Assembly (NCBI RefSeq): GCF_025685415.1
Contig: NZ_JAGSYB010000001.1
Span: forward strand, 1,736,001-1,800,000
Reading direction: 5' to 3'
From: Terriglobus aquaticus
Lineage (GTDB): Bacteria > Acidobacteriota > Terriglobia > Terriglobales > Acidobacteriaceae
DNA length: 64,000 nucleotides
Position numbers and translations under genes: made by a program
Notes under the pieces: generated by a model
Told to the model about the DNA's origin: nothing
Database searches by the model: none
What the model saw: only the letters and a program-made list of their open reading frames with translations
Shown: piece by piece, positions 296 to 63,232 of the stretch
How the letters are laid out: every line of letters starts with the position of its first letter
Numbering within the stretch: position 1 is the stretch's first letter

Positions 296-301
296 AGTTT
301 A
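296..301 (-). promoter_or_regulatory. -10-like TAAACT box of the P5C dehydrogenase gene (leaderless type)
   Basis: TAAACT on the minus strand ends 6 nt before the ATG, the spacing expected if transcription starts on the start codon. No -35 element is evident. Confidence 0.45.
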
Positions 302-326
302 CGCCGCACCCGGGCGGGGTTGCAGC

Positions 327-3300
327 TCAGGAACCGGGCGAGGGAGAACCGTTCAGCATCTGATCCGTCGACTTGCTCATTTTGGCAGTGCGCTCCAGCT
401 TGTCCCAGCTAAATGGCCGTCCGTCGATCACGCGCTTCACCGTCTTCAGCAGCACCACCGAGAACACCTGCCGATAGGTGAACCGCTGGATCCAGATATG
501 AACCAGCAGCCAGCCATCCCCCTTGCTCGCCGGATGCTTGCGTTCCAGCATGAACGCCAGCGCCGATGCCGAGAAGTCGATGATCATGAACGCCAGAAAG
601 TACGTCAGCAACTTCAGGAAGCTGGCGGAGCTCGCCGCCTCCGGGTGGAAGTGTCGGTCGTACAGCCAACGGAACAGGCTCGCCACAAACATCAGGTCGA
701 TCAGCGGCGAGACCAGCGGTAGCAGAATCTGGAAGATGATGATGTTGGGCAGTGCGAACAGGCCCATGGCGCGGCGGTTGCGCACCGCACCCAGGTGCTT
801 GAACACTGCCTGCATGATGCCGAAACTCCACCGGAACCGCTGGCGCATCAGGCCGTTGGCATTCACCGGAGCCTCGGTGAAGGCGAGTGCCTGGTCTTCG
901 TAGATGACCTCGTAGCCCTTTTCGAGCAGGATCATCGTCAGGTCGGCGTCTTCAGCGACGGTGTTCGAATGGTAGCCGCCGGCTTCCTGCACGGGAGCGT
1001 AGCGCCACGCGCCGATGGCTCCCGGCACCACCACGACCACATCGAACAGGTCCAGCGCGCGCCGCTCGAAGTTCTGGCTGGTGATGTATTCCAAGGCCTG
1101 CCAGCGTGTCCACAGATTCACACGGTTGCCGACCTTGGCGTTGCCAGCCACGGCACCGATCTTGGGATTGGCGAAGTGCGGCACCAGGCGAGCGATCGCG
1201 TCGTGCGCGATCACCGTGTCGGCATCGATGCCGACGTAGATCTCCTCTTGCACCAGGTTGCTCAAGGCATAGTTCAGCGCCTCCGCTTTGCCGGCGTTTT
1301 CCTTGCGAACTACGACGAGCCGCCCGCTCTCAATGTCGGCCGCGTAGGCCTCGCGCGCAACCTCCGCTGTGCGGTCCTTGGACCCATCGTCGATCACGAT
1401 GATCCGCAGATTCTTGTAGGTCGACATCATGACCGAGCGGATCGTCCGCACGATCACCTTCTCCTCGTTGTACGCCGGAATCAGCACGGCAACACGAGGC
1501 TCATAGTCGGGTCCGGCGTAGACCTTGCGCTTCCGGAAGCGATCGATCAGCGCGAACAGGCCGATGATGATCAGGCGCGCGCTCATCAGGATGTCGCCTA
1601 GAAAGAAGACCGCGACCACAAAGTGGTTGAACGTCGCCAGGCCAAAGAACGCGATCGAATCCACCATCGCAAACGCTTTGCGGCGCCATCCCGTTACGGA
1701 CGGCATCACCTGCTCGCGAGTCTTGCCGACAAGCGCACTGACTGGCACAAGTTCGTAGCCCCGCTTACGAAGTTCCTGGATCAGCACTGGTAGGGCGGCC
1801 ACGGTGGGCGATCGATCACCACCACCGTCATGCATCAGGATGATGGAACCGCGCAGGTCCTGTCGCTTTTCGCTGAGCTGAATCTGCTCCAGCACGCTTT
1901 GGACGATCTCCTGCGGCGTCTTGCGCGGGTGCTCGTCCCAGTCGTTCGTGTCGATCTTGTCGCCGACCACGATGTAACCGAGCTGCTGTACCCGTTCTAC
2001 GGGTGCCGCCTGGTCATTCGTATCGGGTTCCTGATCGATGGAGTATGGCGGCCGGAAGTACAGTGGCTGCACACCCAACTTCGCCGCGAACAGACGCTCC
2101 GTCAGGTTCAGTTGCAGGTCCACCTGCTTGGGTGAAATACCGCTGATGTCCGGGTGCGTAAAGGTGTGATTACCAATCTCGTGCCCCTCGCGGTACACGC
2201 GCTGCATCACGCCGACATTGTCCTCGGCCTCCTGGCCGATCATGAAGAACGTGCCTTTGACGCCGTACTTCTTCAGGATGTCCAAGATGCGGGGGGTGTA
2301 CTCCGGGTCGGGTCCATCGTCGAAACTGATCGCGAGCTTCTTGGGGTGGTAACCGAAATAGGTCACGGTGTACGACCGGGGAAGGATCGCCATTACATCG
2401 GAATCAATCAGCTTGGAATCATCATCAATGGTCAGAGTGCGATGCCCGCTCCGGGGACTTCCGGAGACGTGCATAACGTCACCCTCTCCTTCGATATCAA
2501 GGTCCCAGCCCGGAGGTACATCAGCTAGATCGTGCACCGGGTTCGCCTTCATCGGCTGATCCCATATCTTCCACAACGACTGGTCCTCTTCACCCAAACG
2601 CCACAGGGCAAACGTCTGGATGCCGAGTTGCCGCGCTGCACGCATCTCGTTATAGGTCGTCACAGCGTCCAGAAACCAGATCTCGTGCCGTTGCTGCTTG
2701 TCTTCGTCGTCGTAGGTGAAATGCGGATTTCGAGAAACGTCATCCAAGTCGACTTCGGAACCTGAATCGATGGCGGATTGCCATACGGATTGCATGGTTT
2801 TGTTGTCCGAGTAGATGACTTTCGGAGTGAACTTCGGCGCGGGTTGCTTCTTGCCCCGCTTTGCCTGCCCTTGCGAAGGCGGCAGCGACATGGTCCAGTC
2901 GTACCCGTAGCTGCCGATGGCGCAGACCAGCTTCTCCTTCGGCACCTCTGACAGAATCTTCTTGAGATTGTTGACGAACCAGTCCTGGCTTGCGATAGGG
3001 CCAGGACCGCTGTCGGTCTGGTGCTCGTCATAGTTCATCAGCAGCAAACCGTCAGAGTTCGCGGCCATGAATTTCAGATCCCAATCGTCATCGCCGACCG
3101 GCACGTTGATGTAAAGTCGCAGCCCACGCTGATGCATCAGCGTATACAGGTTTGCAATCAGTTCGCGGTAGCCCGCCTGAGCGTCAGAAGGAATGTCCTC
3201 AAAGTCGAGAGAGAGACCGTGATACCGCTGGTTCGAGGTCAGCAGCCTCATCGTCTGCGTAACGAAATTGGATCGCGCAGCAGGGTCCTTCAGAAAAACG

Positions 3301-3890
3301 CCCACGGCAGGGATAAAGGTCTGCTGTACGTCGTCGAAGTTGTTGACTAGGGGGAAGATTTCCGTGTTCGAGCCAGAGCTGGCGATCAGCCGCTCCACCT
3401 TGTTCTCAATGTCGATGCTGTGCACACCGGCGCGATCAACCACGTCAAATGGACGGCTATCGATGGAGTAGCCGGTCAACTTGCCATCCGGGGTGATGAC
3501 GTGGAGCCACTCGGGGAAAAGAAGATCGATTTGCTGCACGTGCTGCCGCAATGAGCTATAGCTGGATGCGTCGTAATCCACGTAGTAGGCCGCTCGCAAG
3601 CCTTCGTCGGTGTTTAGCGGAACATCCGACGGCTTACGGTCCGTCCGGCGGTGGGCCGAGCGCGCCTTCTTGCCTTTGTCAGCTAACAAAGGTGGCGTAT
3701 TCAGCGCGCGGTAGTTGTGCTTCGGCTGCTCGAGCAGCAGCTCCGGCAGGGGCCGGATGCGCAGAACACCGATCACGAAGATGACAAAGCAGACCAGTCC
3801 GAACGCGGCAGAGATGTCCAGGATGCGGCGCAGGCGCTTCCACCGCCGGCGTTGCTCGTCATAAAAGATCGGCTTGGTGCTGTTCGGCAT
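327..3890 (-). CDS. Trifunctional membrane protein: GH18-like domain, NodB polysaccharide deacetylase, GT2 glycosyltransferase
   Basis: 1187 aa. An N-terminal membrane segment (about 27-45) is followed by a GH18-like barrel with the catalytic-type motif LDFEDIP (D229-E231). Next is a NodB deacetylase domain (about 515-715) with FDDGPD at 523-528, HTFTH at 575-579, RPPYS and LMHDGGG. After hydrophobic segments (about 747-782) comes a processive GT2 domain with DDGS (834-837), DAD (889-891), EDAD (980-983) and QRFRW (1017-1021), then further membrane helices. GT2 enzymes of this layout polymerise N-acetylhexosamine chains; the deacetylase and hydrolase domains would modify or trim the exported chain. 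The ATG at 3890 was chosen because longer in-frame starts run into the divergent gene, because the membrane segment follows at the usual distance, and because TACGAT lies 8 nt upstream. The substrate is not determined. Confidence 0.9.
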   Translation of the reverse strand: MPNSTKPIFYDEQRRRWKRLRRILDISAAFGLVCFVIFVIGVLRIRPLPELLLEQPKHNYRALNTPPLLADKGKKARSAHRRTDRKPSDVPLNTDEGLRAAYYVDYDASSYSSLRQHVQQIDLLFPEWLHVITPDGKLTGYSIDSRPFDVVDRAGVHSIDIENKVERLIASSGSNTEIFPLVNNFDDVQQTFIPAVGVFLKDPAARSNFVTQTMRLLTSNQRYHGLSLDFEDIPSDAQAGYRELIANLYTLMHQRGLRLYINVPVGDDDWDLKFMAANSDGLLLMNYDEHQTDSGPGPIASQDWFVNNLKKILSEVPKEKLVCAIGSYGYDWTMSLPPSQGQAKRGKKQPAPKFTPKVIYSDNKTMQSVWQSAIDSGSEVDLDDVSRNPHFTYDDEDKQQRHEIWFLDAVTTYNEMRAARQLGIQTFALWRLGEEDQSLWKIWDQPMKANPVHDLADVPPGWDLDIEGEGDVMHVSGSPRSGHRTLTIDDDSKLIDSDVMAILPRSYTVTYFGYHPKKLAISFDDGPDPEYTPRILDILKKYGVKGTFFMIGQEAEDNVGVMQRVYREGHEIGNHTFTHPDISGISPKQVDLQLNLTERLFAAKLGVQPLYFRPPYSIDQEPDTNDQAAPVERVQQLGYIVVGDKIDTNDWDEHPRKTPQEIVQSVLEQIQLSEKRQDLRGSIILMHDGGGDRSPTVAALPVLIQELRKRGYELVPVSALVGKTREQVMPSVTGWRRKAFAMVDSIAFFGLATFNHFVVAVFFLGDILMSARLIIIGLFALIDRFRKRKVYAGPDYEPRVAVLIPAYNEEKVIVRTIRSVMMSTYKNLRIIVIDDGSKDRTAEVAREAYAADIESGRLVVVRKENAGKAEALNYALSNLVQEEIYVGIDADTVIAHDAIARLVPHFANPKIGAVAGNAKVGNRVNLWTRWQALEYITSQNFERRALDLFDVVVVVPGAIGAWRYAPVQEAGGYHSNTVAEDADLTMILLEKGYEVIYEDQALAFTEAPVNANGLMRQRFRWSFGIMQAVFKHLGAVRNRRAMGLFALPNIIIFQILLPLVSPLIDLMFVASLFRWLYDRHFHPEAASSASFLKLLTYFLAFMIIDFSASALAFMLERKHPASKGDGWLLVHIWIQRFTYRQVFSVVLLKTVKRVIDGRPFSWDKLERTAKMSKSTDQMLNGSPSPGS

Positions 3891-3898
3891 GCCCTTGT

Positions 3899-3904
3899 AT
3901 CGTA
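3899..3904 (-). promoter_or_regulatory. -10-like TACGAT box of the GH18/NodB/GT2 gene
   Basis: TACGAT on the minus strand, 8 nt before the ATG; supports the 3890 start and a leaderless or near-leaderless mRNA. Confidence 0.4.
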
Positions 3905-3948
3905 CCGTCCCGACTCGCTCACTTGTCAGCAATCCGGTGAACTGCCGG

Positions 3949-3954
3949 TATGAT
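3949..3954 (+). promoter_or_regulatory. -10-like TATGAT box of the GT-C glycosyltransferase gene
   Basis: TATGAT 8 nt before the ATG at 3963. It lies back to back with the minus-strand TACGAT box at 3899-3904, so the two envelope glycosyltransferase genes appear to be transcribed divergently from a 72-bp interval. Confidence 0.4.
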
Positions 3955-3962
3955 GCAAGTCG

Positions 3963-5345
3963 ATGCGAAAGGTCCATTGGCGCGGAGCCGGTTTTCTGGT
4001 TGCCGCGTTCCTGTTGGCGGGGTTGGTTCTGCGCTGGTACTTCGTGCAGTACCAGCCCTTTGTCGCAGGCGATTCCAGCCTCTACCTCGACATCTCGCAG
4101 AACTGGATCGACGCCCACATCTATGGTCTGTCGACGAACGCGGCGCCCCGCCCCACACTGATCCGGCTGCCCGGATATCCCATGGTGCTCGCGGCCATTC
4201 AGCTAGCCGTGCCAAGCTCGAGTGCCGCGCCAGACGGTTCCGGCGTGTTCCGCTTGCTCATGTGGCTACAGGTGTTGGTAGACCTGGCGACCTGCGTTCT
4301 GGTGTCTCGCCTGGCATGGCGCAACTTCGGTCGCCGCGCCGGTCTGTCCGCGCTGGCCATGAGCTCGCTTTGCCCGTTCCTGGCGAACTACACCGCCGTG
4401 CCGCTCACTGAATGCTTTGTGCTGTTCACGGTCGCGCTTGCGTTCTGGGCCGCCGACCTGTGGCGACGGCAGCCACGCATGGTGTGGCTCGTTGTTGCCG
4501 CACTTGCGCTGGGCTACAGCATTCTGCTTCGGCCCGACCAGGGGCTGCTGGCCGCGGCCGTGATCCCCCTGTTTGTCCGCACGTCTGGAGAACGCCACAC
4601 GTGGCGATTTGCTCTGCTCTGCGCCTCCTTGACCCTCCTGCCGCTGGTCCCATGGACCGTACGCAATGCACGCACCTTCCACGTCTTTCAGCCGCTCTCT
4701 CCCAAGTCCGCCACCGACCCCGGCGAGCCGTATGCCAAGGGATTCCCGCACTGGTATCGGACCTTTGCCATCGACTTCACCAGCACGGAAGACGCCTACT
4801 GGAACTATCCGGAGATCGCAGTCGACGCAGCCGACTTGCCCACCCGCGCCTATGACACACCGCAGCAGCGAGCGACCGCAACAAGGCTGCTGCACCAGGC
4901 CGCCGCCGCAAAGAAGCTGCGCCCCGACGTCGAATCCGGCTTCGACAAGCTCGCCGCCGAGCGCATCCACGCTCATCCATTCCGGTATTACGTTGCGTTG
5001 CCCATCGCGCGGCTCGTCAACATGCTGCTGCACCCGCGTATCGAGATGCTCCCGATTGACGAACGTTGGTGGCGCTTCCGCCTCCATCCCGGCCAGACGG
5101 TTTTCGCCACCGCGTACGCTGCGCTCAATCTGGCCTACATGGTGTTGGCGGCGCTCGGCTTGCGATCTGCCTTCCGCGTCGCCCCTGCCCTTTCCGCCAG
5201 CATGTGCGCCTTCGTCCTGCTGCGATGCGCTCTGCTGCTCACACTGGACAACGCGGAGCAGCGCTACACGCTGGAGTTCCTGCCAGTCTTTTTCTTCTTC
5301 GCCGCCGCATGGTTCGCCCGGCCTCCAGGGCGCGAGGCGGCATGA
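3963..5345 (+). CDS. GT-C fold membrane glycosyltransferase (GT39/ArnT-like)
   Basis: 460 aa polytopic membrane protein with about ten hydrophobic stretches. The first external loop carries GDSSLYLDI, with the acidic residue typical of the catalytic loop of polyprenyl-phosphate-sugar dependent transferases, and RLPGYP follows, a common signature of bacterial GT39/PMT-like proteins. Members move a sugar from a lipid phosphate carrier to a protein or glycolipid on the outer face of the cytoplasmic membrane; donor and acceptor cannot be read from sequence. It is divergent from the GH18/NodB/GT2 gene and overlaps the next small gene by 4 bp (ATGA), so the two are probably translationally coupled. 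Confidence 0.8.
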   Translation: MRKVHWRGAGFLVAAFLLAGLVLRWYFVQYQPFVAGDSSLYLDISQNWIDAHIYGLSTNAAPRPTLIRLPGYPMVLAAIQLAVPSSSAAPDGSGVFRLLMWLQVLVDLATCVLVSRLAWRNFGRRAGLSALAMSSLCPFLANYTAVPLTECFVLFTVALAFWAADLWRRQPRMVWLVVAALALGYSILLRPDQGLLAAAVIPLFVRTSGERHTWRFALLCASLTLLPLVPWTVRNARTFHVFQPLSPKSATDPGEPYAKGFPHWYRTFAIDFTSTEDAYWNYPEIAVDAADLPTRAYDTPQQRATATRLLHQAAAAKKLRPDVESGFDKLAAERIHAHPFRYYVALPIARLVNMLLHPRIEMLPIDERWWRFRLHPGQTVFATAYAALNLAYMVLAALGLRSAFRVAPALSASMCAFVLLRCALLLTLDNAEQRYTLEFLPVFFFFAAAWFARPPGREAA

Positions 5346-5638: not shown

Positions 5639-5691
5639 CACTCTTTGCTGATAACGCTTGTCGAGCGCACGCTAACCGCGACGACGAGCTT

Positions 5692-9175: not shown

Positions 9176-10771
9176 TTAGCCGTGGCGGAAATGTCGCATG
9201 CCCGTGAATACCATGGCAAGTCCCAGCCGGTCCGCCGCGGCGATCACCTCGGCATCCCGCACGCTGCCGCCTGGCTGAATCACCGCCGTCGCGCCAGCGG
9301 CTGCCACCACTTCCAGGCCGTCCGCGAACGGGAAGAATGCATCGGATGCGGCGACACTGCCGGCGGTCGGCAGTACGGCCTTCTGCGCCCCGAAGCGGGC
9401 CGCGTCCACCCGGCTCATCTGCCCGGCGCCCACGCCAACGGTCTGGCCGAACCCACCCTCCGCTCGCGCATACACAATCGCGTTCGACTTCACGTGTTTG
9501 CACACCGTCCAGGCAAAGCGCAGGGCTGCCATTTCGTCGTCCGTCGGCTTTCGCTGCGTCATCACTTTCAGATCAGACTCGCCCAGCGTCCCGCGATCCG
9601 CTCCCTGCAACAGCGCGCCGCCTGAAACCTGCTTGAACACAAACTTCGTCTCTGCCGGAACGATCTGCAGCAGCCGCAGGTTTTTCTTGGCCGCGAAGCG
9701 CTCCACCGCCTCTGGCGTGAACGACGGCGCCACGATCGCCTCGACGAACAGCTTCGCGATCTCCTCGGCTGCCGCGGCGTCCACCTCGCGGTTGATGCCG
9801 ATGACACCGCCAAACGCCGACACCGGATCGGCTGCCAGCGCTCGCAGGTAGGCGTCGCGCACATCCGCGCCCTGGGCAGCGCCGCAAGGGTTAGTGTGCT
9901 TGATAATCGCTACCGCGGGGCGATCGAACTCGCCTGCAAGCTCCCAGCAGGCATCCAGGTCGACCAGGTTGTTGAACGACAACTCCTTGCCCTGTAGTTG
10001 CCGCGCGTTCGCGATGCCCTTGCCGGAGCCGTCGGTGTAGACCGCCGCTGCCTGGTGCGGGTTCTCTCCGTACCGCAGCGGCTGCAGCATCGGCAGATTG
10101 ATCCGGATCGCGGACGGCATCCCCGCCGCCCGGTCCCGCAGCGCCGGTTGCGAAGCCTCGCCGGTGGGCGCCTCCAACTCTCCCAGCGCATTGGCGATTG
10201 CGGTGTCGTACGCCGCCGTGGTGGCAAACGCCGCCTTGGCCAAGCGCCAGCGCGTGCCGAGACTCAGCGCTCCTTGAGCCGACTCCATTTCCGCCGCGAT
10301 CGAGTCGTAATCGCCCGGGCTCGTCACAATCGCGACGTCCTCAAAATTTTTCGCCGCCGAGCGCACCATGCTGGGGCCGCCAATGTCGATGTTCTCGACC
10401 ACCTCGTGAAACAGCACGCCCGGCTTCGCAGCCGTCTTTTCAAACGCGTACAGGTTCACCACCACCATGTCGATGGGCTCAATGCCGTGCTGCTCGACTG
10501 CCGCCACATGCTCGGCCTTGCCGCGGATGTGCAGAATGCCGCCATGCACCTTGGGATGGAGGGTCTTCACCCGGCCGTCGAGCATCTCCGGAAAGCCGGT
10601 CAGATCGCTGATGTCACGCACCGGCAGGCCTTCGCCGCGCAGCGCCGCAGCCGTCCCGCCGGTCGAGACCAGCTCCACACCCAGCGCATGCAGGCGCCGC
10701 GAAAACTCAACAATACCGGTCTTATCGGTCACGCTGATCAGCGCGCGACGCACAGGGTTTGAGGGATTCAT
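9176..10771 (-). CDS. purH: Bifunctional AICAR transformylase / IMP cyclohydrolase
   Basis: 531 aa, the normal PurH length. It catalyses the last two steps of purine synthesis, AICAR to FAICAR (with 10-formyl-THF) and FAICAR to IMP. The N-terminal MGS-like cyclohydrolase domain shows [14 protein letters not shown], and [15 protein letters not shown]; the C-terminal transformylase domain has [10 protein letters not shown] and ends in the family-typical TGMRHFRHG. Transcribed with pyrD upstream, but a TACAAT box 8 nt before its ATG suggests its own start site in the 39-bp gap. Confidence 0.97.
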
Positions 10772-10779
10772 TACCGTTG

Positions 10780-10785
10780 ATTGTA
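10780..10785 (-). promoter_or_regulatory. -10-like TACAAT box of purH
   Basis: TACAAT on the minus strand, 8 nt before the purH ATG, in the 39-bp gap after pyrD. Confidence 0.45.
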
Positions 10786-11734: not shown

Positions 11735-13419
11735 TGCCCCGCTCCAGTTACCGGACCGGTCGAGCCCGCCGCCTCTGGCCGCATCACCTGCGTAAGCACA
11801 TGGCCGACCGAAGCCGAGGGCTGATTCAGCCGCAGCAGCGATGCAAACGTCGCTGCGATGTCTACCGGCGCGACCGGGTCGTGATACGTCCCAGGCACAA
11901 ATGCCGCGCCGAACAGATCCAGCGGAACGTGCCGGTCATACGCGTTCTGTGAATAGTGTCCTGCCCCCGCGGCCGATCCCGGATATTGGAACAGCCCCAG
12001 GTTCATGTGCACGGCCCAACGGACATAGGGCGAATAGCTGTTCTGCACACGCAGTCCATACGGATCGTTCGGCAACCGTCCATCGCGCATCTGCGACGCC
12101 GTGTAGACCGCCCGCACCCGTTGCGATTCCGGCAGCCTTTCCGCGGACACGGCGTGTCCCGCCGCCGCAAGCTCCTGCTCCGCGAAGAAGCTGCGTACCG
12201 CCTCAGCCGTTGCCTCCTCTGCGTCCTCTTCCTTCACACCAGCAGCCTGGAATGGCTCCGGCTGAATCTGCAGCCAGGGCAGTTCCGGGCTCAGCACCAG
12301 CGACCGTCCATGCCGATCCACCTGCGGAAAACGCTTTTCCAGCGCCGCCTCGACAAACGCGATCATCTTCGGGGCAGAGAAAGCAGCGCCCGGCATACCG
12401 ATCCGTGCCGATTGCTGCTCGGTCGGTGCCACGCCATGATCGCCGCTCAGGGCGACCACCACATTCTGCAGCCCCACATAGCTGTCGAGCCAAGTGAAGA
12501 AGGCGTCCAGTTGCGCGTCCGCCGCATCGATCATGGCGCGCTGCTCCGGCGAGTCCGGCCCCACACCATGGCCCAGGATGTCCGTCGACGAGATCGACAG
12601 CGTCAGCATATCTGTGACACCGGCCGGGTTCCTGCCCATCTGTTCGCCCTGGATCAGGGCCTTCGCGAAGTCCAGTTGATAGCTGACCGACGCCGGTGTG
12701 CGACCCACCCGGTCATAGAACTCACCCGTGTCCGCGTGCGCCTCCCGGCGGGCCTCCGCCGCGCGCTTCGATGCGTTGAACGCCGCGGCCCACGGCGGCA
12801 ACTGCTGCATCCAGTACGTCGACGTGATCCAGGCACCGCTGGTGTGGTCCGTCCAGAACGCACCCTTGCTTGCATGACCACTCGTCAGGATCGCGGCGCG
12901 ATCCTTGAACGACACACCGTACACCTTGGCCTTGCCGTTCGTTGCCAGCTCCAATTCATCGCCCACGGTCGACGCCAGCTCGTTGTGTGGCGACGCTCCC
13001 GGAGACACCGGCTGCCCGGCAGGCATGCCAACCATCGTGTACCGCGTGTCTTCCACGCTGGTAATCTCGTGCGGCACACCGTTCGGTCCCGTTACCCACC
13101 ACTGGTTCAGCGGAATGCCATGCCCATTGGTGTAGCTTCCGGTGCCGATGGTCGAGTGCCCCGCCGCCGTCACCAGGTTGGCATAGTCGTAATAGCAATC
13201 CGTGAAGTGCGCGCCCTGCTTCAGAAACAGGTTCCAGCCATTCTTTGCGTGAAAGTCCGCGCGGTACCGGTCCAGGTAATCGCCGCGAAACTGGTCAAAC
13301 ACCAGGATGATCGCCAGCTTGGGCGAGCCGTTATACGCGTCTGCATGCACGGCGGCAGAAGGCAGCAGCAGAGCGGCGGCTGCAAGGGCGCAGGAAAGGA
13401 GGCGCATACCCAAAAGCAT
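11731..13419 (-). CDS. Exported alkaline phosphatase / phosphodiesterase (PafA/NPP superfamily)
   Basis: 562 aa with a signal peptide (MRLLSCALAAAALLLPSAAVHA). The metal and nucleophile features of the PafA/nucleotide pyrophosphatase branch of the alkaline phosphatase superfamily are visible: VFDQFRGDY with metal Asp42, VTAAGHST with the probable nucleophile Thr84, GHGV in the middle, and LSGDHGVAP with metal Asp/His. The product likely releases phosphate from periplasmic phosphomonoesters. A second in-frame ATG (13407) fits the signal peptide equally well. Overlaps pyrD by 4 bp, an unusual pairing of a secreted phosphatase with pyrimidine synthesis. Confidence 0.88.
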   Translation of the reverse strand: MLLGMRLLSCALAAAALLLPSAAVHADAYNGSPKLAIILVFDQFRGDYLDRYRADFHAKNGWNLFLKQGAHFTDCYYDYANLVTAAGHSTIGTGSYTNGHGIPLNQWWVTGPNGVPHEITSVEDTRYTMVGMPAGQPVSPGASPHNELASTVGDELELATNGKAKVYGVSFKDRAAILTSGHASKGAFWTDHTSGAWITSTYWMQQLPPWAAAFNASKRAAEARREAHADTGEFYDRVGRTPASVSYQLDFAKALIQGEQMGRNPAGVTDMLTLSISSTDILGHGVGPDSPEQRAMIDAADAQLDAFFTWLDSYVGLQNVVVALSGDHGVAPTEQQSARIGMPGAAFSAPKMIAFVEAALEKRFPQVDRHGRSLVLSPELPWLQIQPEPFQAAGVKEEDAEEATAEAVRSFFAEQELAAAGHAVSAERLPESQRVRAVYTASQMRDGRLPNDPYGLRVQNSYSPYVRWAVHMNLGLFQYPGSAAGAGHYSQNAYDRHVPLDLFGAAFVPGTYHDPVAPVDIAATFASLLRLNQPSASVGHVLTQVMRPEAAGSTGPVTGAGH

Positions 13420-13463
13420 ACCGTCCGCCGGCGTGCGCAGGATGAAACAACCGCAAAGCCGTT

Positions 13464-13469
13464 TACGAT
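13464..13469 (+). promoter_or_regulatory. -10-like TACGAT box of serS (leaderless type)
   Basis: TACGAT ending 6 nt before the serS ATG; there is no Shine-Dalgarno sequence in between. Confidence 0.5.
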
Positions 13470-19824: not shown

Positions 19825-19830
19825 ATGATA
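19825..19830 (-). promoter_or_regulatory. -10-like TATCAT box of tsaB
   Basis: TATCAT on the minus strand, 9 nt before the tsaB ATG. Confidence 0.35.
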
Positions 19831-33539: not shown

Positions 33540-33545
33540 AGTTTA
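33540..33545 (-). promoter_or_regulatory. -10-like TAAACT box of uup (leaderless type)
   Basis: TAAACT on the minus strand ending 6 nt before the uup ATG; identical box and nearly identical gap (TGAGGG) to those at the P5C dehydrogenase gene (gap TGAGCT). Confidence 0.5.
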
Positions 33546-35714: not shown

Positions 35715-36713
35715 CTATCGCAGAGGCACAGGGCTCGTCGCATCGCGGTCGCGATACCACGGCGCCCGGAAGCGCAGAATGTTCGCTCCGCTGCGGCACG
35801 GCTCCATCAGCGACGACGCCAGCAGCACCCACGGATTGTGTACATTGTGCGTGATGCGCCGGAACCAGATCTTGTCCACGTAGTCCTCGCCTACGTTCCA
35901 CAACAGGCCGCCCACGGGCGTCACGAAGAAGTCCACCATGCCGGTTTCATTCGTATTCCGGCCCAGCTTGGGGCTGTAGTACGTCTTGATACCGATGTTC
36001 CCCATCGACGACTCACTTACCGGCCCCACCTTCCATTGCGCGCTGTAGACCGCCGAGTAGGCCGTCGCTCGCAGCCGTCCCATCCAGTAGCGATGCGTGT
36101 TCTCAAACACCAGCGCACGCTGCTTGGGATCGTTCTGCTCATAGATGCTGTTGGTGATTGCGCCCATGATCGGGTGGCCGATGTAGTCGACCCCGAAGGG
36201 GTCGCCATCGTTCCACCGGTTATAGCTGTAGCGATGCAGCGTCAGCTCGTAGTCGTACCAGAAATCGGTGTTCAGAAAGTGCTGCTGTGCGTCCTCATCC
36301 ATCGCCAGATTGCCGCTGTGCTGCATTGACAAAAACAGCATGGAGCTGCCGATCACGCGAACCCAGCTCACGCGGCACGGCTTTCCATGCAGCTCGTGAT
36401 TCTCACATTGGGTGTTGCGCTCGATCTCCGACAGCTCGTGCGGGCTATCCTGCTTGATCGGCAGCGCACCTGCGCGCCCGGCACCTGCAACAGGGGCTGC
36501 ACCTGCGCCTAGAGCCATTGCGGCGCTTGCCACTGTGTGCTCCGCCCATGCGGGCGCGGGTGCCTCGGGCAATTCCAGCGCAACATCCTCGTTGCGAGAA
36601 GCTGCAGAGGGCCGCTCCGCGCTCAGCTCCGCAATCCCCTGTCCGCCCGCGCGGATCGCGCAGATTGCCACCCCGAGCAGCAACAGGCAGAGGCGAAACC
36701 AGGAACGCAGCAT
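35715..36713 (-). CDS. Exported protein of unknown function
   Basis: 332 aa. Signal peptide (about 1-25), an Ala/Pro-rich stretch to about 90, then an aromatic-rich region with FLSMQHSGNLAMDED, FWYDYELTLHRYSYNRWNDGDPFGVDYIGHP and GPVSESSMGNIG, alternating hydrophobic residues that could form strands or helices in the outer envelope. I do not recognise the family with confidence. TAGACT lies exactly 6 nt before the ATG. Divergent from murE. Confidence 0.75.
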   Translation of the reverse strand: MLRSWFRLCLLLLGVAICAIRAGGQGIAELSAERPSAASRNEDVALELPEAPAPAWAEHTVASAAMALGAGAAPVAGAGRAGALPIKQDSPHELSEIERNTQCENHELHGKPCRVSWVRVIGSSMLFLSMQHSGNLAMDEDAQQHFLNTDFWYDYELTLHRYSYNRWNDGDPFGVDYIGHPIMGAITNSIYEQNDPKQRALVFENTHRYWMGRLRATAYSAVYSAQWKVGPVSESSMGNIGIKTYYSPKLGRNTNETGMVDFFVTPVGGLLWNVGEDYVDKIWFRRITHNVHNPWVLLASSLMEPCRSGANILRFRAPWYRDRDATSPVPLR

Positions 36714-36719: not shown

Positions 36720-36725
36720 AGTCTA
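36720..36725 (-). promoter_or_regulatory. -10-like TAGACT box of the exported unknown (leaderless type)
   Basis: TAGACT on the minus strand, 6 nt before the ATG at 36713. Confidence 0.5.
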
Positions 36726-36775: not shown

Positions 36776-36781
36776 TACAAT
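36776..36781 (+). promoter_or_regulatory. -10-like TACAAT box of murE (leaderless type)
   Basis: TACAAT ending 6 nt before the murE ATG; no Shine-Dalgarno sequence fits in the gap (TCCCCTC...). Confidence 0.55.
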
Positions 36782-42404: not shown

Positions 42405-42410
42405 TACGAT
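42405..42410 (+). promoter_or_regulatory. -10-like TACGAT box of the alginate lyase gene
   Basis: TACGAT 7 nt before the ATG at 42418. Confidence 0.45.
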
Positions 42411-45860: not shown

Positions 45861-45866
45861 ATGCTA
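45861..45866 (-). promoter_or_regulatory. -10-like TAGCAT box of the Vps62-like gene (leaderless type)
   Basis: TAGCAT on the minus strand, 6 nt before the ATG at 45854; 19 bp from the divergent TACACT box at 45886-45891. Confidence 0.4.
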
Positions 45867-50610: not shown

Positions 50611-50616
50611 TATACT
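50611..50616 (+). promoter_or_regulatory. -10-like TATACT box of rph (leaderless type)
   Basis: TATACT ending 6 nt before the GTG start of rph. Confidence 0.5.
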
Positions 50617-50622: not shown

Positions 50623-51366
50623 GTGAACGTCCACCCCATCTTCCGTGCGGAGAACCGCGCCGCCGACCAGCTCCGCCCCATCCGTCTCACCCCGGACTTC
50701 GTCGCCACCGCCGAGGGTTCCGTGCTCGTCGAGTTCGGCCACACCCGCGTCCTCTGCAACGCCACCGTCGAGCAGACCGTGCCCGGCTGGCTGCGCAACA
50801 GCGGCAAAGGCTGGGTCACCGCCGAATACTCCATGCTGCCCCGTGCCACCCTCACCCGTACCCCGCGCGAATCCGAGCGGGGCAAGATCGGCGGCCGTAC
50901 CCACGAGATCCAGCGCCTCATCGGTCGCTCCCTGCGGTCCGTGGTCGACCTGCGCGCCCTCGGCGAACGCTCCATCATCCTCGACTGTGACGTCCTGCAG
51001 GCCGACGGCGGAACCCGCACTGCCGCCATCACGGGCGCAGCCGCGGCGCTGTCCCTGGCGCTCAACAAACTTGTCGCTTCCGGCACGCTGCCCGCCTCGC
51101 CCATGCGCGAACTTGTTGCCGCGGTCTCGGTCGGCATCGTCGAGGGCCAGGTTCTCCTGGACCTCGACTACCAGGAAGACTCCCAGGCCGAGACCGACAG
51201 CAACGTCGTCATGACTGCCTCGGGCGGCCTGGTCGAAACCCAGGCCACAGCCGAGCGCACGCCCTACACCCGGGACCAGCTCACCGAGATGCTCGACGTC
51301 GCCTCCCAGGGCATTCAGCAGCTCATCGCCACCCAGGCCGCGCTGCTCGCTCCGTCAGCCTCCTGA
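50623..51366 (+). CDS. rph: Ribonuclease PH
   Basis: 247 aa phosphorolytic 3' exoribonuclease that trims tRNA 3' ends. Motifs: [52 protein letters not shown] and [22 protein letters not shown] start at 50623, fitting the family N terminus ([14 protein letters not shown]) and the TATACT box. Confidence 0.97.
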
Positions 51367-51691: not shown

Positions 51692-51801
51692 CCTCTCTCG
51701 CGGCATCGGCTCCGCGCCGGCTCCCGGTCACGGGACGTTCAAGCGTCCACCTGCGCCTATCCGTTACCATCGAACAGTCAGTTCGGGAGGAAATGTAAGT
51801 C

Positions 51802-52815
51802 ATGGCCACCAAGCCCACTGCCGGAAAACTCGCCGGTCTTCAAGCCGTCTCCGACGCCCGCGGCGTCATCGCCGCCGCCGCCATGGACCAGCGCGGTTCC
51901 CTGCAGAAGTCCATCGCCGCCGCGCGCGGCGGCACGGCTTCCGATAAAGATCTGGAGACCTTCAAGGTCCTGGTCACAGAGGTGCTCACCCGCTACGCGT
52001 CCGCAATCCTCATGGACCCGGAGTACGGCCTGCCCGCGACCAAGGTGCGCAACGACGCCGGCCTTCTGCTGGCCTATGAAAAGACCGGCTACGACGCCAA
52101 CACGGCCGGCCGTCTGCCCGACCTGCTCGACCACTGGAGCGTTCGCCGCCTGAAGGAAGCCGGTGCCGACTGCATCAAGATCCTGCTCTACTACTCGCCG
52201 CTTGAGCAGACCGCAATCAATGACGTCAAGCACGCCTGGGTCGAGCGCATTGGCGATGAGTGCCTCGCTCACGACATCCCGTTCTTCCTCGAAACGGTCG
52301 GCTACGACGTCGATGGCGCCGGCGAAAAGACCCTCGAATACGCGAAGAAGAAGCCCGTCATCGTCTCCGGCTCCATGGCCGAGTTCGGCAAGACGCGCTA
52401 CAACGTCGACGTCCTCAAGGTGGAAGTGCCGGTCGAAATGAGCTTCGTTGAAGGCACCGCCGCCTACAAGGGCGAGAAGGCCTACACCCGCGCCGAAGCC
52501 CTGGAGTACTTCCGCGATGCCGAGGGCATGAGCGACAAGCCTTTCATCTATCTCTCCGCCGGCGTCTCCAACCCCGTCTTCATCGAAACGCTCGAACTCG
52601 CCGCCGAGTCCGGCACCAAGTTCAACGGCGTCCTGTGCGGCCGCGCCACCTGGAAAGACGGCATCGACATCTACGCCAAGCAGGGAGAAACACCCTTCCG
52701 CGCCTGGCTCGAAACCAAGGGCGTCGAAAACATCCAGAACGTTAACAAAGCCCTCGAAGCCGCAACCCCCTGGTACACCAAGTTCGGCGCCACCAGCTAC
52801 GACGAACTCCGCTAG
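51802..52815 (+). CDS. Tagatose-1,6-bisphosphate aldolase-like (LacD family)
   Basis: 337 aa class I aldolase. The Schiff-base Lys is expected in ADCIKILLYYSP, and AAAMDQRGSL, ILMDPEYGLPA, VDVLKVEVPVEM and YLSAGVS are LacD-family motifs. It cleaves tagatose-1,6-bisphosphate to DHAP and glyceraldehyde-3-phosphate, and such enzymes can also act on fructose-1,6-bisphosphate. No other lac/tagatose genes are nearby, so a general glycolytic or other aldolase role is possible. GGGAGG ribosome-binding site; followed by a strong terminator. Confidence 0.9.
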   Translation: MATKPTAGKLAGLQAVSDARGVIAAAAMDQRGSLQKSIAAARGGTASDKDLETFKVLVTEVLTRYASAILMDPEYGLPATKVRNDAGLLLAYEKTGYDANTAGRLPDLLDHWSVRRLKEAGADCIKILLYYSPLEQTAINDVKHAWVERIGDECLAHDIPFFLETVGYDVDGAGEKTLEYAKKKPVIVSGSMAEFGKTRYNVDVLKVEVPVEMSFVEGTAAYKGEKAYTRAEALEYFRDAEGMSDKPFIYLSAGVSNPVFIETLELAAESGTKFNGVLCGRATWKDGIDIYAKQGETPFRAWLETKGVENIQNVNKALEAATPWYTKFGATSYDELR

Positions 52816-52935: not shown

Positions 52936-52941
52936 TACACT
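52936..52941 (+). promoter_or_regulatory. -10-like TACACT box of the POTRA gene (leaderless type)
   Basis: TACACT ending 6 nt before the ATG at 52948. Confidence 0.5.
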
Positions 52942-52947: not shown

Positions 52948-54224
52948 ATGCGTTTCCCTGTTTTGCTTTCTGTCGCGGCGCTTGCCGCCTGCCTTCCCGT
53001 GTCTGCGCAACAGCACTTCACACTCAAGCGCATCGTCTTCCAGGGCAAAACACCCTACACCAACGAGCAGCTTCAGGCCGCATCCGGCCTCAAACCCGGT
53101 CAGACCATCACCACCGCCGACCTGACCGCAGCCGCACAACGTCTGATGGACACCGGCGCAATGCGCGACGTGGAGCCCTCTCTCGACGGAGCCGTCACCG
53201 GCATCACGGCGATCCTTAAAGTCACGCCGGTCGACGCGAAGGAGCTACTGCCCACCGCCGTCGACAACCTCATCTGGCTCGATCCCAAGCAGCTTTCATC
53301 CGAGTTACACCGCCGAGTCCCGTTGTACTCTCCGCAGTTGCCGCAGGCAGGCACACTCGGCACGCAGGTGCGCGACGCCCTGCAGGCCATGCTCGCCGAA
53401 AAGGGTGTCACGTACAAAGTTGAGCTGGTCGACACGCCCTCGACCGACACCGCGCCGGAGACGCTCCACTTCCGCATCAACAATCCAACTCTCGTGCTGA
53501 ACAGCGTTCACCTGGAAGGCCTAATCACCGAAACTGCGCCCGCACTTCGGCAGAGTCTGCGCGGCGTCGTGGGCAAGCCCTATGACGAAGGTTCTGGCGA
53601 ATCGCTCGATGATCGCCTGCTAACGCCTTTCCGGGACACAGGCTACCTGGATGCCACCATCAGCGGCCTTTCTCGCTCGGCAGAGGCCGAAAAGGCGGGT
53701 GTGGTGGGAGTCGTCATCTCCGGCACCGTGACTGCTCTTACCATGTTGGCACTCTCACCTACGCGGGCGCACCGCTGTACTCACCCCAGCAGTTCGCGGC
53801 GACTCAGAAGCTGCATGCCGGTGACGTCGCTTCGCAAGCGGCGCTGCAGGCTTCCTTTCAGCCCATCCTCGACACGTACCACGACCAGGGTTACGTCGAC
53901 GTTCGCGTGGACACCGCTCCGCAACTCGATCGCACGGGCCACACCGTCAATTACGCCATCACCGTGATACCCGGCCAGCAGTACACCGTCGGAGCCGTCC
54001 ACGCGGACGGCCTGACCGGTCAGGCCCAGACCGACTTCGACGGGAACTGGAAGCTCAAGCCAGGCAGCGTCTATAACGCGTCGTACCCGCGAACGTTCCT
54101 TCGCAACAACTCCGCTCTTCGATCGCTGCAGCCCTACACCGCCGTGTACGACACCAAGGCCGATCCAGCGACGCACACCATCGATCTCAACATCCACTTC
54201 CTGCGCAACAACAACCGGGGCTAA
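52948..54224 (+). pseudogene. Exported POTRA-repeat protein, interrupted by one frameshift
   Basis: Signal peptide (MRFPVLLSVAALAACLPVSAQ), then POTRA-like repeats: FTLKRIVFQGKTPYTNEQLQAASGLKPGQ and LVLNSVHLEGLITETAPALRQSL. The frame is lost near 53734-53739; adding one base there gives HVGTLTYAGAPLYSPQQFAATQKLHAGD and a third repeat (YTVGAVHADGLTG) to 54224, about 425 aa in total. No beta-barrel follows. POTRA domains of this kind act in outer-membrane protein assembly or secretion. Either a sequencing error or an inactivated gene. Confidence 0.78.
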
Positions 54225-55961: not shown

Positions 55962-57548
55962 TCACTCCCACTCAATCGTTCCCGGAGGCTTGCTCGTCAC
56001 GTCGTACACCACGCGATTGATCCCGCGCACCTCGTTCACGATGCGGCTGCTGATCGTCCGCAACACCTCGTACGGCAACGGCACCCAGTCCGCCGTCATG
56101 CCATCGCCCGAGTGCACCGCTCGAATCGCACACGTGTAGGCATAGGTCCGCTGGTCACCCATCACGCCCACCGACTTCACCGGCAGCAGCACCGCAAAGC
56201 TCTGCCATATCTCGCGGTACAGCCCGGCCTTCTTGATCTCGTTCACGACGATCTCGTCTGCGTTCTGCAGAATCGAAACGCGCTCCGGCGTCACCTCGCC
56301 CACAATGCGCACCGCCAGCCCTGGCCCCGGAAACGGCTGCCGCTCCAGCACCTCCTGCGGCATACCCAGGTCCGCACCGAACCGCCGCACTTCGTCCTTG
56401 AACAGGTCGCGCAGCGGCTCAATCAGCTTCAGCTTCATGTTTTCAGGCAAGCCGCCCACGTTGTGGTGGCTCTTGATCGTCTGCGACGGCCCCTTCACGC
56501 TGCTCGACTCGATCACGTCCGGGTACAGCGTGCCCTGCACCAGCCACGCGACCTCCTTGCCGCCCACATCGTGCGCCACCTCGCCGGCCTTTTCCTGCCC
56601 GCGCAGAATCTTCGCCGCCTCGTCATCGAACACCGCGATGAACTCGCGGCCGATGATCTTGCGCTTCGTCTCCGGATCGGTAATGCCACCCAGCTGCGAC
56701 AGGAACCGCTTCGACGCGTCCACCGCAACCACGTTCAAGCCGAGCTTCTCGCGCATGTTGCGCTGTACCTGCTCAAACTCATTCTTGCGCAAAACACCGT
56801 TGTTCACAAAAATGCACGTGAGCCGGTCGCCAATGGCGCGAGCCACCAAGACCGCCGCCACCGCCGAGTCCACGCCACCACTCAAACCGCAGATCGCATG
56901 CCCATCCGGCCCCACCTGCTCGCGAATGCGCGCCACGGTCGACTCGATGAACGCCTCGCTGGTCCAGTCCGCCTTCGCCCCGCAGATCTCAAACACAAAG
57001 TTCCGCAGCAGCTCCGTCCCCTGCTTCGAGTGCGCAACCTCGGGGTGCCACTGCACCGCATACATCCGCCGCGTCTCGTCCGCAATACTCGCCAGCGCGC
57101 TGTGCGACGTCGCCGCCACCACAAACCCCTCCGGCAGGTCGATCACGCTGTCGCCGTGAGACATCCACACCTGCAGCTCACGCGGCAGTCCGGCAAACAG
57201 CCGGTTCTCCACCGCTACCGTCGCAACCGCATCGCCGTACTCGCGCTTGTCCGCCGGCTCCACGCGCCCGCCCAGGTGGTGCGCCATGAACTGCATGCCG
57301 TAGCAGATGCCCAGCACCGGCAGCCCCAACCCCAGTACCGCCGGATCAGCCTTCGGCGCATCCGCGTCATACACCGAGCTCGGTCCGCCCGAAAGCACCA
57401 CGCCGACCGGGTTCAGCGCCCGGATCTCCTCGAGTTGCGCCGTGCACGGCAGCACCACGCTGAACACGTTGAACTCACGAACGCGCCGCGCAATCAACTG
57501 CGTGTATTGCGCGCCAAAATCCAGAATTACGACCGTCGAACTACTCAC
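55962..57548 (-). CDS. guaA: GMP synthase (glutamine-hydrolysing)
   Basis: 528 aa. It aminates XMP to GMP. The class I glutamine amidotransferase domain has Cys in GICYGMQ, and His/Glu in WHPEVAHS; the synthetase P-loop is [10 protein letters not shown], followed by the dimerisation domain ([12 protein letters not shown]) and the C-terminal ending TIEWE. GTG start at 57548 is chosen because TACACT lies exactly 6 nt upstream and because VILDFGAQY begins right after. Confidence 0.97.
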
Positions 57549-57554
57549 GCCCCC

Positions 57555-57560
57555 AGTGTA
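57555..57560 (-). promoter_or_regulatory. -10-like TACACT box of guaA (leaderless type)
   Basis: TACACT on the minus strand ending 6 nt before the GTG start at 57548. Confidence 0.5.
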
Positions 57561-58829: not shown

Positions 58830-58832
58830 GCG

Positions 58833-61352
58833 CTACTTCACAACCAGGTTGACCAGCTTGCCCGGCACCACAATCGTCTTCACCACGGTCTTGTCCACCA
58901 GCCGCGCCGCAATGCGCTCATCGCTCATCGCCGCCGCCTTCACCGCGTCGTTGTCCGCGCCCGCCGGCACCTTCACCACATTCGCCAGCTTGCCGTTGAT
59001 CTGCACCGGGATCTCGATCTCGTCCTCGCGCGCCAACTCCGCATCCGCCGCAGGCCACGGCTGCCGGAACACCACACCCTCATGCCCCAGCTCCGTCCAC
59101 AACTCCTGCGCCAGGAACGGCGCAAACGGCGCCAGCAACAGCGTCAGCGACCGGAACAACTCGCGCTGCGTCGCCTCGCTCACCTCGCCCGAGTCCATCG
59201 CAGCCTCTGCCGCGATCAGTTCATTCACCAGCACCATCACGCTCGCGATGCAGGTGTTGAAGTGCCAGCGCCCGCTGAAGTCCAGCGTGATTTTCGCAAT
59301 GGTCTGGTGCAAGGTGCGCAACAGCTTCTGCCCCGCAGGCGACAACGCCTCCGTCGCGCTCGATCCCTCGTGCGCCTTCAGCCCCGGCGCAAACTTCATC
59401 GTTACGCGGTACACGCGCGACAGGAACCGCGAGATGCCCGCGACACCCTCTTCCTGCCACTCCAGGTCGCGATCCGGCGGCGCCGCAAACAGCGCGTACA
59501 TGCGCGTCGCATCCGCGCCGTACTTCGCAATCATGTCGTCGGGCGACACCACATTGCCCTTCGACTTCGACATCTTCGCGCCGTTCTTGATCACCATACC
59601 CTGCGTGAACAACCGCTTCGCCGGCTCGCTGTTCTCGATCAGGCCCAGGTCGCGCATCACCTTGGTCCAGAACCGCGAATAGATCAGGTGCAGGATCGCG
59701 TGCTCCACGCCGCCAATGTACTGGTCGATCTCAAACCAGTAGTTCGCCACCGCACTGTCGAACGGCGCCGCCGAGTTCTTCGGGTCCGTGTAGCGGTAGA
59801 AGTACCAGCTCGAATCTACGAACGTATCCATCGTGTCCGTCTCGCGCTTCGCGGCACCACCACACGCCGGGCATGTCGTGTTCAGAAATTCCGGCACGCT
59901 CGCCAGCGGCGATCCCTGTACGTTCTGCACGTCGATGTTGTCCGGCAACAGCACCGGCAACTGCTCCGCCGGCACCGGCTGCATGCCGCACTGGTCGCAA
60001 TACACCACCGGGATCGGCGTACCCCAGTACCGCTGCCGGCTCACGCCCCAGTCCTTCAACCGGAACGTCACCGTAGCCTTGCCGAAGCCCTGCGCCTCGG
60101 CATGCTTGGCCATCTTCTCCAAGGCCTCCAGCACCGGCTCGCCCGTCCACTCGCCGCTGTCGACCAGCACCGCCTCGGCCTTGTCCGTGAACGGCAGGCT
60201 TAACTCCTCCGTGTCCAGGTTCGGAGCCACAACGCGCTTGATCGGCAAACCGTACTTCGTCGCAAACTCAAAGTCGCGCTCATCATGCCCCGGCACACTC
60301 ATCACCGCGCCCGTGCCGTAGCCGCTCAACACGTAGTTCGCCACCCACACCGGAATCGGCTCACCCGTGAACGGGTTGATCACCTTGCGCCCAGTGTCTA
60401 CGCCATGCTTCGGCAACTCGCCCAGAGCGTCGGTGTCCTTCGCCGTCTTCTGCTCGGCCAGCATCGCTTCCACTTCGGGCCGCAGCTTCTCATCGAAGCC
60501 ACACCAATGCGTCACGATCGGATGATCCGGCGCCACCTGCAAGCTCGTCGCGCCAAAGATCGTATCGATGCGCGTGGTGAACACTGTAATCGTCATCGAG
60601 TCCGTACAGCCCTCGACGGCAAACGTCACCTCCGCGCCCTCGCTGCGGCCGATCCAGTTGCGCTGCATCGTGCGCACCTTCTCCGGCCATCCGTCCAGCG
60701 CATCCAGACCGTTCAGCAGCTCATCCGCGTACTTCGTAATGCGATAGAACCACTGCGTCAGGTCGCGCTGCTCGACCAGCGTGTCCTCGTGCCGCCAGCA
60801 GTAACCGCCCACCACCTGCTCATTCGCCAGCACGGTGTTGCACTTGGGGCACCAGTTCACCTTGCTCTTCTTGCGATACGCCAGGTCGCGCTTCAGCATC
60901 TCCAGGAAGAACCACTGGTTCCAACGGTAGTAGTCCGGCAGGCACGTGGTCACCTCGCGCTGCCAGTCATAGCTCAGCCCCATGCGCTGCATCTGCTTGC
61001 GCATCTCGGCAATGTTGCTCAGCGTCCAGTCACGCGGCGGCGTGTTGTTCTTGATGGCAGCGTTCTCCGCCGGCAGGCCAAAACTGTCCCACCCCATCGG
61101 GTGCAGCACGTTGAAGCCGTTCATCCACTGATAGCGCGCCAGCGCGTCGCCAATGCTGTAGTTCCGCACATGCCCCATGTGCAGCTTGCCGCTGGGGTAC
61201 GGCAGCATCTCAAGAACGTAGTACTTCGGCTTGCCGCCGGTGTGCGGCTCCGCGGCATACAGCGCCGGGTCGGCATCCCACTGCGCCTGCAGGCGCGGCT
61301 CAATCTCGGCGGGGTTGTAACGAATCTCAACGTTCTGGGCGGCTTCAGGCAT
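58833..61352 (-). CDS. leuS: Leucyl-tRNA synthetase
   Basis: 839 aa class I synthetase. HMGH (58-61) is the HIGH box and KMSKS (593-597) is intact; the connective editing domain (about 220-420) lies between and shows the zinc-binding type CPKCNTVL and, later, CPACGG. ATG at 61352 is used; TACAAT lies 8 nt before it, and an in-frame GTG at 61355 lies one codon upstream. It is divergent from the fluoride riboswitch and exporter. Confidence 0.97.
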
Positions 61353-61360
61353 CACTTCTC

Positions 61361-61366
61361 ATTGTA
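61361..61366 (-). promoter_or_regulatory. -10-like TACAAT box of leuS
   Basis: TACAAT on the minus strand, 8 nt before the leuS ATG. Confidence 0.45.
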
Positions 61367-61430
61367 GAAGCTGGCAGGCAACTTACACCTCTGTCCCGCT
61401 GAACTGATAGCTTTTAAGCAGGCTTTCCAT

Positions 61431-61497
61431 GGCGATGGGGTTCGCCAAAACCGCCCGGAACGGGCTGATGACTCCTGCGACATTCCTCAGAGGAGTC
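61431..61497 (+). promoter_or_regulatory. Fluoride riboswitch (crcB motif) with SD-sequestering platform
   Basis: Stem 1 GGCGA/TCGCC (61431-61435, 61442-61446) with loop TGGGGT; stem 2 GCCCG/CGGGC (61453-61457, 61461-61465); then TGATG and ACTCC (61471-61475), which pairs with GGGGT (61437-61441) to make the aptamer pseudoknot (one G-U). The same ACTCC region can pair instead as GACTCCT (61470-61476) with AGGAGTC (61491-61497), covering the AGGAG ribosome-binding site of the downstream gene. Fluoride binding should therefore expose the site and switch translation on. Confidence 0.93.
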
Positions 61498-61507
61498 TCC
61501 TCCACAC

Positions 61508-62827: not shown

Positions 62828-62893
62828 TCTCCAGGACCAGCCCCGTGCCGCTGCATTCACCGCCACGGATCTCGCGGCCTGGCGAACGCTCGC

Positions 62894-63220
62894 CTATGCC
62901 AGCGAGATCGGGTTCCCGGTATGCTCGCCGATCAGCCGCTCCGTCAGCGGCAGCAGCGCTTCACCCGTCTTCGGCAGCGCAAACGCCTCGCCATTCCAGT
63001 CCAGCTTGAAGCTCGTCGACAGCGCCGAAATCCAGATCTGCCGCACCGGCGTATTCGGCGTAAACACAAACTTCCCCTTGGGGTCGTCGAACACCACGTT
63101 CAGCACGCCGCCGTTCTCTTCCACCTCAAAGCCGCCGTCTTCCTCGGCCTCGATCAGGCTCTGCTTCAGCGTGTGCAACGCGCGGTCTGCCTCGCGCCGA
63201 AAAGTCGTCTCGTCCATCAT
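62894..63220 (-). CDS. cyaY: Frataxin-like iron-binding protein
   Basis: 108 aa. Acidic first helix (READRALHTLKQSLIEAEEDGG) followed by the frataxin beta sheet, FEVEENGGVLNVVFDDPKGKFVFTPNTPVRQIWISALS and FKLDWNG, matching CyaY. Frataxin regulates iron delivery for Fe-S cluster assembly. TAGACT lies exactly 6 nt before the first of two adjacent ATGs. No isc/suf genes are nearby. Confidence 0.93.
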   Translation of the reverse strand: MMDETTFRREADRALHTLKQSLIEAEEDGGFEVEENGGVLNVVFDDPKGKFVFTPNTPVRQIWISALSTSFKLDWNGEAFALPKTGEALLPLTERLIGEHTGNPISLA

Positions 63221-63226
63221 GCGCCC

Positions 63227-63232
63227 AGTCTA
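63227..63232 (-). promoter_or_regulatory. -10-like TAGACT box of cyaY (leaderless type)
   Basis: TAGACT on the minus strand ending 6 nt before the first ATG of cyaY. Confidence 0.5.

Follow-up and report, generated by a model that had tools for sequence, protein, structure and literature searches.

Where does transcription begin when a gene carries a TANNNT hexamer a few nucleotides (nt) before its start codon? The question is raised by a stretch of 64,000 nt from Terriglobus aquaticus (C1:1736001-1800000 of a 4.16-Mb genome in two contigs, 99.99% complete), here called the window in its full length, for which a first-pass annotation had claimed at least 16 operon-leading genes with such a box 6-9 nt before the start. 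Re-reading the hexamer coordinates gives 17 boxes, ten of them at exactly 6 nt (all ten genes named for that distance in the annotation) and seven at 7-9 nt (Table 1). We find that the box is enriched at a specific position upstream of genes, that it nearly excludes Shine-Dalgarno (SD) sites, that it is nearly restricted to lead genes, the first genes of operons, and that it is conserved before several orthologs. The boxes are very probably sigma-70 type -10 elements that start leaderless or near-leaderless mRNAs, a mode that would cover roughly 12-14% of the lead genes in the window's genome.

Enrichment of the box before lead genes

Enrichment was measured in 864 kb of the window's own genome, in which 410 lead genes and 112 operon-internal genes were counted. 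Genes were called from codon statistics and a start-codon prior, with upstream sequence ignored, so that the starts are blind to the motif. In this comparison with controls, the test that the first-pass annotation had proposed, 62 of the 410 lead genes have TANNNT at 5-9 nt, where 11.7 are expected. The counts for spacers of 5 to 9 nt are 3, 23, 18, 10 and 8, over a background of 2.34 per position (about 1 in 175); the chance rate of 1 in 64 or less given in the first-pass annotation was therefore cautious. Over all 410 lead genes the excess over background is 12.3%. It amounts to 15.5% for divergent genes, 9.3% for genes at least 60 bp behind a same-strand neighbor and 8.5% for a group of 68 genes at 21-59 bp. 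Because the window is richer in boxed lead genes than the rest of the sample (11/33 vs 51/377, p = 0.009), it overstates the genome-wide rate.

The signal is specific to the three fixed letters. Of all 64 patterns spaced in this way, TAnnnT has the strongest enrichment (5.3-fold; the next reaches 2.3-fold), and T-A-T at offsets 0, 1 and 5 tops the ranking when gapped triplets are searched openly. Within the hexamer, the middle prefers A and then C/A (TANAMT), as expected of a -10 element. A smaller test on 464 kb (the window and 20 further stretches) found 34 TANNNT matches at 5-9 nt among 212 lead genes; the remaining seven A/T patterns of this spacing gave 5-16 and shuffled upstream DNA 7.3 +/- 2.6 genes. 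Given this enrichment over both shuffled DNA and other A/T patterns, we reject chance or general A/T richness as the source. When any in-frame ATG or GTG within 75 nt is allowed as the start, a box falls at 6-8 nt in 71/410 (about 14%; shifted-position controls give 15, 15 and 14 of 410).

Boxes and SD sites hardly ever occur together: an SD core precedes 4/62 boxed lead genes vs 117/348 unboxed ones (p = 3e-6), in line with the earlier remark that SD sites are mostly absent at boxed genes. Operon-internal genes often carry them, as had also been said (58/112). The box shows the opposite distribution. Only eight of the 112 internal genes are boxed, and their raw excess of 6.0% arises mostly because upstream stop codons match TANNNT, as in five of the eight; once such overlaps are removed, 3/112 internal genes remain boxed vs 62/410 lead genes (p = 1.4e-4). 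Stop codons explain none of the lead-gene matches. One of the five overlaps, at gene 40960 in the window (spacer 9), was not counted as a box, since it is the TAG stop codon of the gene upstream. Boxed genes rarely start with TTG (1/77 vs 39/513, p = 0.048). The 3' end of the 16S rRNA is GGATCACCTCCTTTCT, in which the anti-SD core CCTCC is present; since the anti-SD is kept, SD-led and leaderless initiation should coexist in this genome, and no loss of the SD system was found.

Conservation and competing readings

We infer from these patterns that the box acts as a -10 element, and with this role would come both the place of the transcription start and the mode of translation initiation. More specifically, the element would sit at such a distance that RNA polymerase begins at the start codon itself or 1-3 nt ahead of it, ribosomes would load on the 5'-terminal AUG or GUG without the help of an SD helix, and operon-internal genes as well as the other lead genes would use SD sites or neither. 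The leaderless interpretation proposed in the first-pass annotation is supported by the enrichment, by the replacement of SD sites, by the restriction to lead genes and by the conservation of the box in orthologs, leuS excepted.

Among same-family relatives, guaA has TANNNT 5-6 nt before its start in 12 of 16, while the remaining upstream DNA differs (two loci in the set, L108 and L109, share the same upstream sequence and hence do not count as separate evidence); eight of these 12 read TTTACACT-N6-GTG. Elsewhere in the phylum, none of 13 genomes has a guaA box at 5-6 nt when the nearest start is taken, five have an SD core and one has TANNNT 5 nt before an alternative start. A boxed start of rph is found in 11/15 family relatives, and murE has a box at 5-10 nt in 7/13, these with TATAAT. 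For serS the box stands at 4-12 nt in 6/8 family relatives and 2/16 others; a reading of the upstream DNA in 51 of 80 serS loci places it at 7-11 nt in 16 of the 17 nearest acidobacterial loci (L022-L038), and one Aminicenantes locus is boxed. The records closest to the SerS protein of the window come from Granulicella and other Acidobacteriaceae, the best three at 69-72% identity, which bears out the placement in Acidobacteria by the first-pass annotation. For sampled genomes outside the family, SerS identity to the nearest named locus is 56-70%. A contrast gene led by an SD site, at 51802, has an SD core in 12/15 relatives and a TANNNT start in 1/15. The murE, rph and leuS sets each leave out one edge locus, and L308 and L325 are not included. 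Since the boxes of guaA, rph, serS and murE are kept, that of leuS is not, and gene 51802 stays SD-led, the initiation mode goes with the individual gene; the family retains it for several of the genes tested, though not for all.

In leuS (L293-L307), seven of 14 family relatives have no box at the start and carry TGTAAAAT 11-44 nt upstream. This gene may represent a switch between leaderless and leadered forms among orthologs.

The excess extends to parts of the phylum. In samples of 200 kb each it reaches 7.8% in a genome of the same family (G083) and 12.2%, 11.2% and 8.7% in three others (G111, G010 and G096). Pools drawn from 80 loci by title and length give +21.6% for eight Acidobacteriaceae-like loci (two of them titled just Acidobacteria or Acidobacteriales) and +14.5% for 15 other acidobacterial loci (three of which carry an Acidobacteriaceae title). 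Non-acidobacterial controls processed with the same caller show no excess: E. coli has 4/59 boxed lead genes (-1.2%), a mostly Desulfobacterota pool of ten loci, one an alphaproteobacterial record, gives -2.0% and a Bacillota pool of 17 loci gives -9.8%. All samples outside the window's genome are small, with 58-154 lead genes each.

Several observations weigh against the boxes as leaderless -10 elements. Four of the nine phylum genomes sampled lack the excess (G085, G086, G053 and G110, at -7.2 to 0.5% in 200 kb each). Among serS loci, 9/14 of the more distant acidobacterial ones have no box (5/14 do) and only 2/19 outside the phylum are boxed; leuS is boxed in just 3/14 relatives, one of these doubtful. 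The -35 element is weak. As the first-pass annotation had it, -35 boxes are mostly absent, with at least 4/6 matches to TTGACA at 17 nt in 6/77 boxed genes; this is a slight surplus over other spacings (mean 2.05, p = 0.018) that is not unique, as a spacing of 27 also gives 6. Furthermore, pyrimidines are not clearly favored at -1 (61% vs 55%). The count of an extended -10 TG, 6 vs 4.9 expected, points in neither direction.

Of the competing explanations, the one that survives best also treats the boxes as -10 elements but lets transcription start a few nucleotides off or at several sites, giving 1-5-nt leaders, or just within the gene, a start codon further down then being used. Spacers of 8-9 nt are indeed common in relatives (12/15 in Acidobacteriaceae-like loci), and the serS orthologs lie mostly at 8-9 nt. 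In the window's genome, however, the mode is 6-7 nt (41/62, with 3 more at 5), which is the usual distance from a -10 element to +1, and the boxed guaA relatives have 6 nt in ten cases and 5 nt in two. The two spacer distributions differ (7 nt or less in 44/62 vs 3/15 in the Acidobacteriaceae-like loci L022-L027, L030 and L031, p = 6e-4, on small numbers). We judge offset starts to be improbable as the general rule, although genes with 8-9-nt spacers may have short leaders of 1-3 nt instead of being fully leaderless.

That TANNNT instead serves translation, as an A/T-rich region free of structure ahead of the start, would fit its fixed place by the start codon and its substitution for SD sites. 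Such a signal would hardly be specific for T, A and T at offsets 0, 1 and 5 with other A/T patterns less enriched, the box has the -10 consensus, and operon-internal genes need translation too, yet are nearly without it; we regard this explanation as very unlikely. Least credible of all is a mixture of chance and start-codon choice, some of many alternative starts falling near TANNNT: boxes are more frequent in the window than elsewhere in the sampled genome and the caller matched the annotated start in just 29 of the 44 E. coli genes that it recovered by stop codon (46 were given), but the peak persists with upstream-blind starts, the same processing of E. coli and other phyla gives none, and several orthologs keep the box. 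Wrongly called starts would be expected to weaken the signal, not to produce it. Taken together, these considerations favor -10 elements that would place transcription starts at or just before the start codon.

Boxed genes and head-to-head gaps of the window

Within the window, 13 of the 17 boxed starts were picked independently by the motif-blind caller; the other four are 289, at the window edge, 42418 and 45854, where an internal start was chosen, and 52948, where the gene was missed. Family profiles align residue 1 of SerS with position 1, residue 2 of frataxin with 1, residue 5 of PurH with 3, residue 7 of the GuaA GATase domain with 1 and residue 8 of RNase PH with 1, and this placement of residues 1-8 at profile positions 1-3 supports several of the boxed starts. 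Genes 289, 10771 and 63220 lie 37-42 bp behind a same-strand gene, so that their description as operon-leading is less sure. Some of the gene names first proposed have to be softened: the gene at 289, named P5C dehydrogenase, is placed here at the level of the aldehyde-dehydrogenase family, the uup gene encodes an ABC-F ATPase whose best match, Uup, falls below the cut-off, and the POTRA gene at 52948 has a weak BamA/POTRA match. The name Vps62-like for gene 45854 found no confirmation, a weak TSP3 match being its sole family signal.

Table 1. Boxes, contrast site and head-to-head pairs of the window; genes are designated by the position of their start codon
Feature	Position	Strand	Start codon	Distance	Gene or remark
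TAAACT	296..301	-	ATG at 289	6 nt	aldehyde-dehydrogenase family (Pfam Aldedh); 550 amino acids, extends left past window edge
TACGAT	3899..3904	-	ATG at 3890	8 nt	deacetylase/GT2 fusion
TATGAT	3949..3954	+	ATG at 3963	8 nt	PMT_2-like
TACAAT	10780..10785	-	ATG at 10771	8 nt	purH; same-strand gene 39 bp upstream
TATGCT	13415..13420	-	ATG at 13407	7 nt	type I phosphodiesterase family
TACGAT	13464..13469	+	ATG at 13476	6 nt	serS
TATCAT	19825..19830	-	ATG at 19815	9 nt	Pfam TsaD family
TAAACT	33540..33545	-	ATG at 33533	6 nt	ABC-F ATPase
TAGACT	36720..36725	-	ATG at 36713	6 nt	no family match
TACAAT	36776..36781	+	ATG at 36788	6 nt	murE
TACGAT	42405..42410	+	ATG at 42418	7 nt	alginate lyase family; caller chose 42460
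TAGCAT	45861..45866	-	ATG at 45854	6 nt	caller chose GTG at 45812
TATACT	50611..50616	+	GTG at 50623	6 nt	rph (RNase PH)
TACACT	52936..52941	+	ATG at 52948	6 nt	weak BamA/POTRA match
TACACT	57555..57560	-	GTG at 57548	6 nt	guaA
TACAAT	61361..61366	-	ATG at 61352; GTG at 61355	8 nt; 5 nt	leuS
TAGACT	63227..63232	-	ATG at 63220	6 nt	cyaY/frataxin; same-strand gene 42 bp upstream
SD site GGGAGG (contrast)	51785..51790	+	ATG at 51802		DeoC/LacD aldolase family
Head-to-head pair	3890-/3963+			gap 72 bp	box at both ends
Head-to-head pair	13407-/13476+			gap 68 bp	box at both ends; serS
Head-to-head pair	36713-/36788+			gap 74 bp	box at both ends; murE

Three head-to-head pairs in the window have a box at both ends. 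Among 98 divergent pairs in the window's own genome, the 13 gaps shorter than 80 bp have 15/26 ends boxed and five double-boxed pairs, vs 22/170 ends and no double pair in the 85 longer gaps (p = 2e-6 for ends, p = 2e-5 for double pairs). SD sites follow the opposite trend (2/26 short-gap ends vs 48/170 longer-gap ends), and the contrast stays when starts are re-chosen (16/26 vs 37/170, with 2/26 and 8/170 in a shifted control). On both grounds we reject start misplacement as the whole cause. In relatives, gaps shorter than 120 bp have 33/92 ends boxed vs 27/166 in longer ones (p = 6e-4), summed over the six sets with a leaderless excess, the four genomes without it and the Desulfobacterota pool being left out; at the 80-bp cut the difference in these relatives is not significant (12/38 vs 48/220 ends, p = 0.21), and their double-boxed pairs occur at longer gaps too. 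Both cuts are post hoc.

The short-gap enrichment is most simply read as geometric, since little space for leaders is left between such close starts. A more speculative idea, which we hold to be possible though rather unlikely, is that leaderless promoters permit very compact head-to-head pairs: in gaps of 46-74 bp, a -10 box for each gene would drive a leaderless mRNA from core promoters that abut or overlap and act as a bidirectional module, each filling most of the other's upstream region, and the genes (serS, murE and their neighbors) might be coupled through competition for RNA polymerase.

Elsewhere in the same genome, a 46-bp head-to-head gap (L238:7108-7155) has TANNNT 7 nt before each start; with only 20 bp between the boxes, overlap of the core promoters is expected.

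Two of the paired genes deserve a description. The gene at 327-3890 (-) encodes 1187 amino acids, with a polysaccharide deacetylase part at about residues 510-720 and a GT2 part at 767-1152 that resembles poly-beta-1,6-GlcNAc synthase; none of the 25 NCBIfam scores shown reaches its curated cut-off. Head-to-head with murE lies a gene of 332 amino acids (35715-36713, -) for which neither Pfam nor NCBIfam gives a match at E <= 0.001.

Comparison with known systems

Acidobacteria are abundant in soil and their transcription is little studied. If a fairly stable core set (guaA, rph, serS and in part murE) is leaderless, this should be considered when gene starts are annotated, promoters predicted or expression vectors built for the family, and the boxed core genes are ready targets for an experiment on transcription start sites (TSS). 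Among the matches listed in the open-licence literature, there was no experimental paper on TSS or leaderless transcripts in Acidobacteria and none matching leaderless divergent pairs; a transcriptome and proteome study of Granulicella is among them, without TSS terms.

Mycobacterium tuberculosis reportedly has a leaderless transcriptome in which, by TSS sequencing, mRNAs with a TANNNT -10 element start at the start codon. The likeness to the present case is this element; the differences are that M. tuberculosis belongs to the Actinobacteria and that starts were mapped there, whereas here they are predicted from sequence.

In Deinococcus radiodurans, TANNNT next to the open reading frame drives leaderless mRNA, with the -35 as an optional enhancer, and about one third of genes are estimated to be leaderless (PMC12340547). 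The box has the same adjacency in the window; the differences are that the Deinococcus case was shown by experiment and covers about a third of genes, whereas ours would concern fewer genes and is inferred (PMC12340547).

The closest precedent is Zheng et al. 2011, where a TANNNT box some 12 bp ahead of the start is the signal of TA-led (leaderless) genes and where Table 2 predicts leaderless genes in three of three acidobacterial genomes, with a mean of 13.3% (9.7-19.4) (PMC3160421). Leaderless mRNA outside Actinobacteria and Deinococcus, Acidobacteria included, was thus a concept already predicted in 2011, which answers, by prediction, the question of generality in Acidobacteria that the first-pass annotation had left open (PMC3160421). 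The finding is real and rightly read, and it is not new in kind. Our samples agree with that prediction for some lineages, four of nine genomes being without excess. Signal, inference and phylum are the same, and the 12-14% obtained here is of similar order, although the denominators may differ (PMC3160421). The 2011 work is a genome-level prediction for three genomes; the present analysis covers another genome, with the conservation of the box among orthologs, an SD-led contrast gene and the divergent gaps (PMC3160421).

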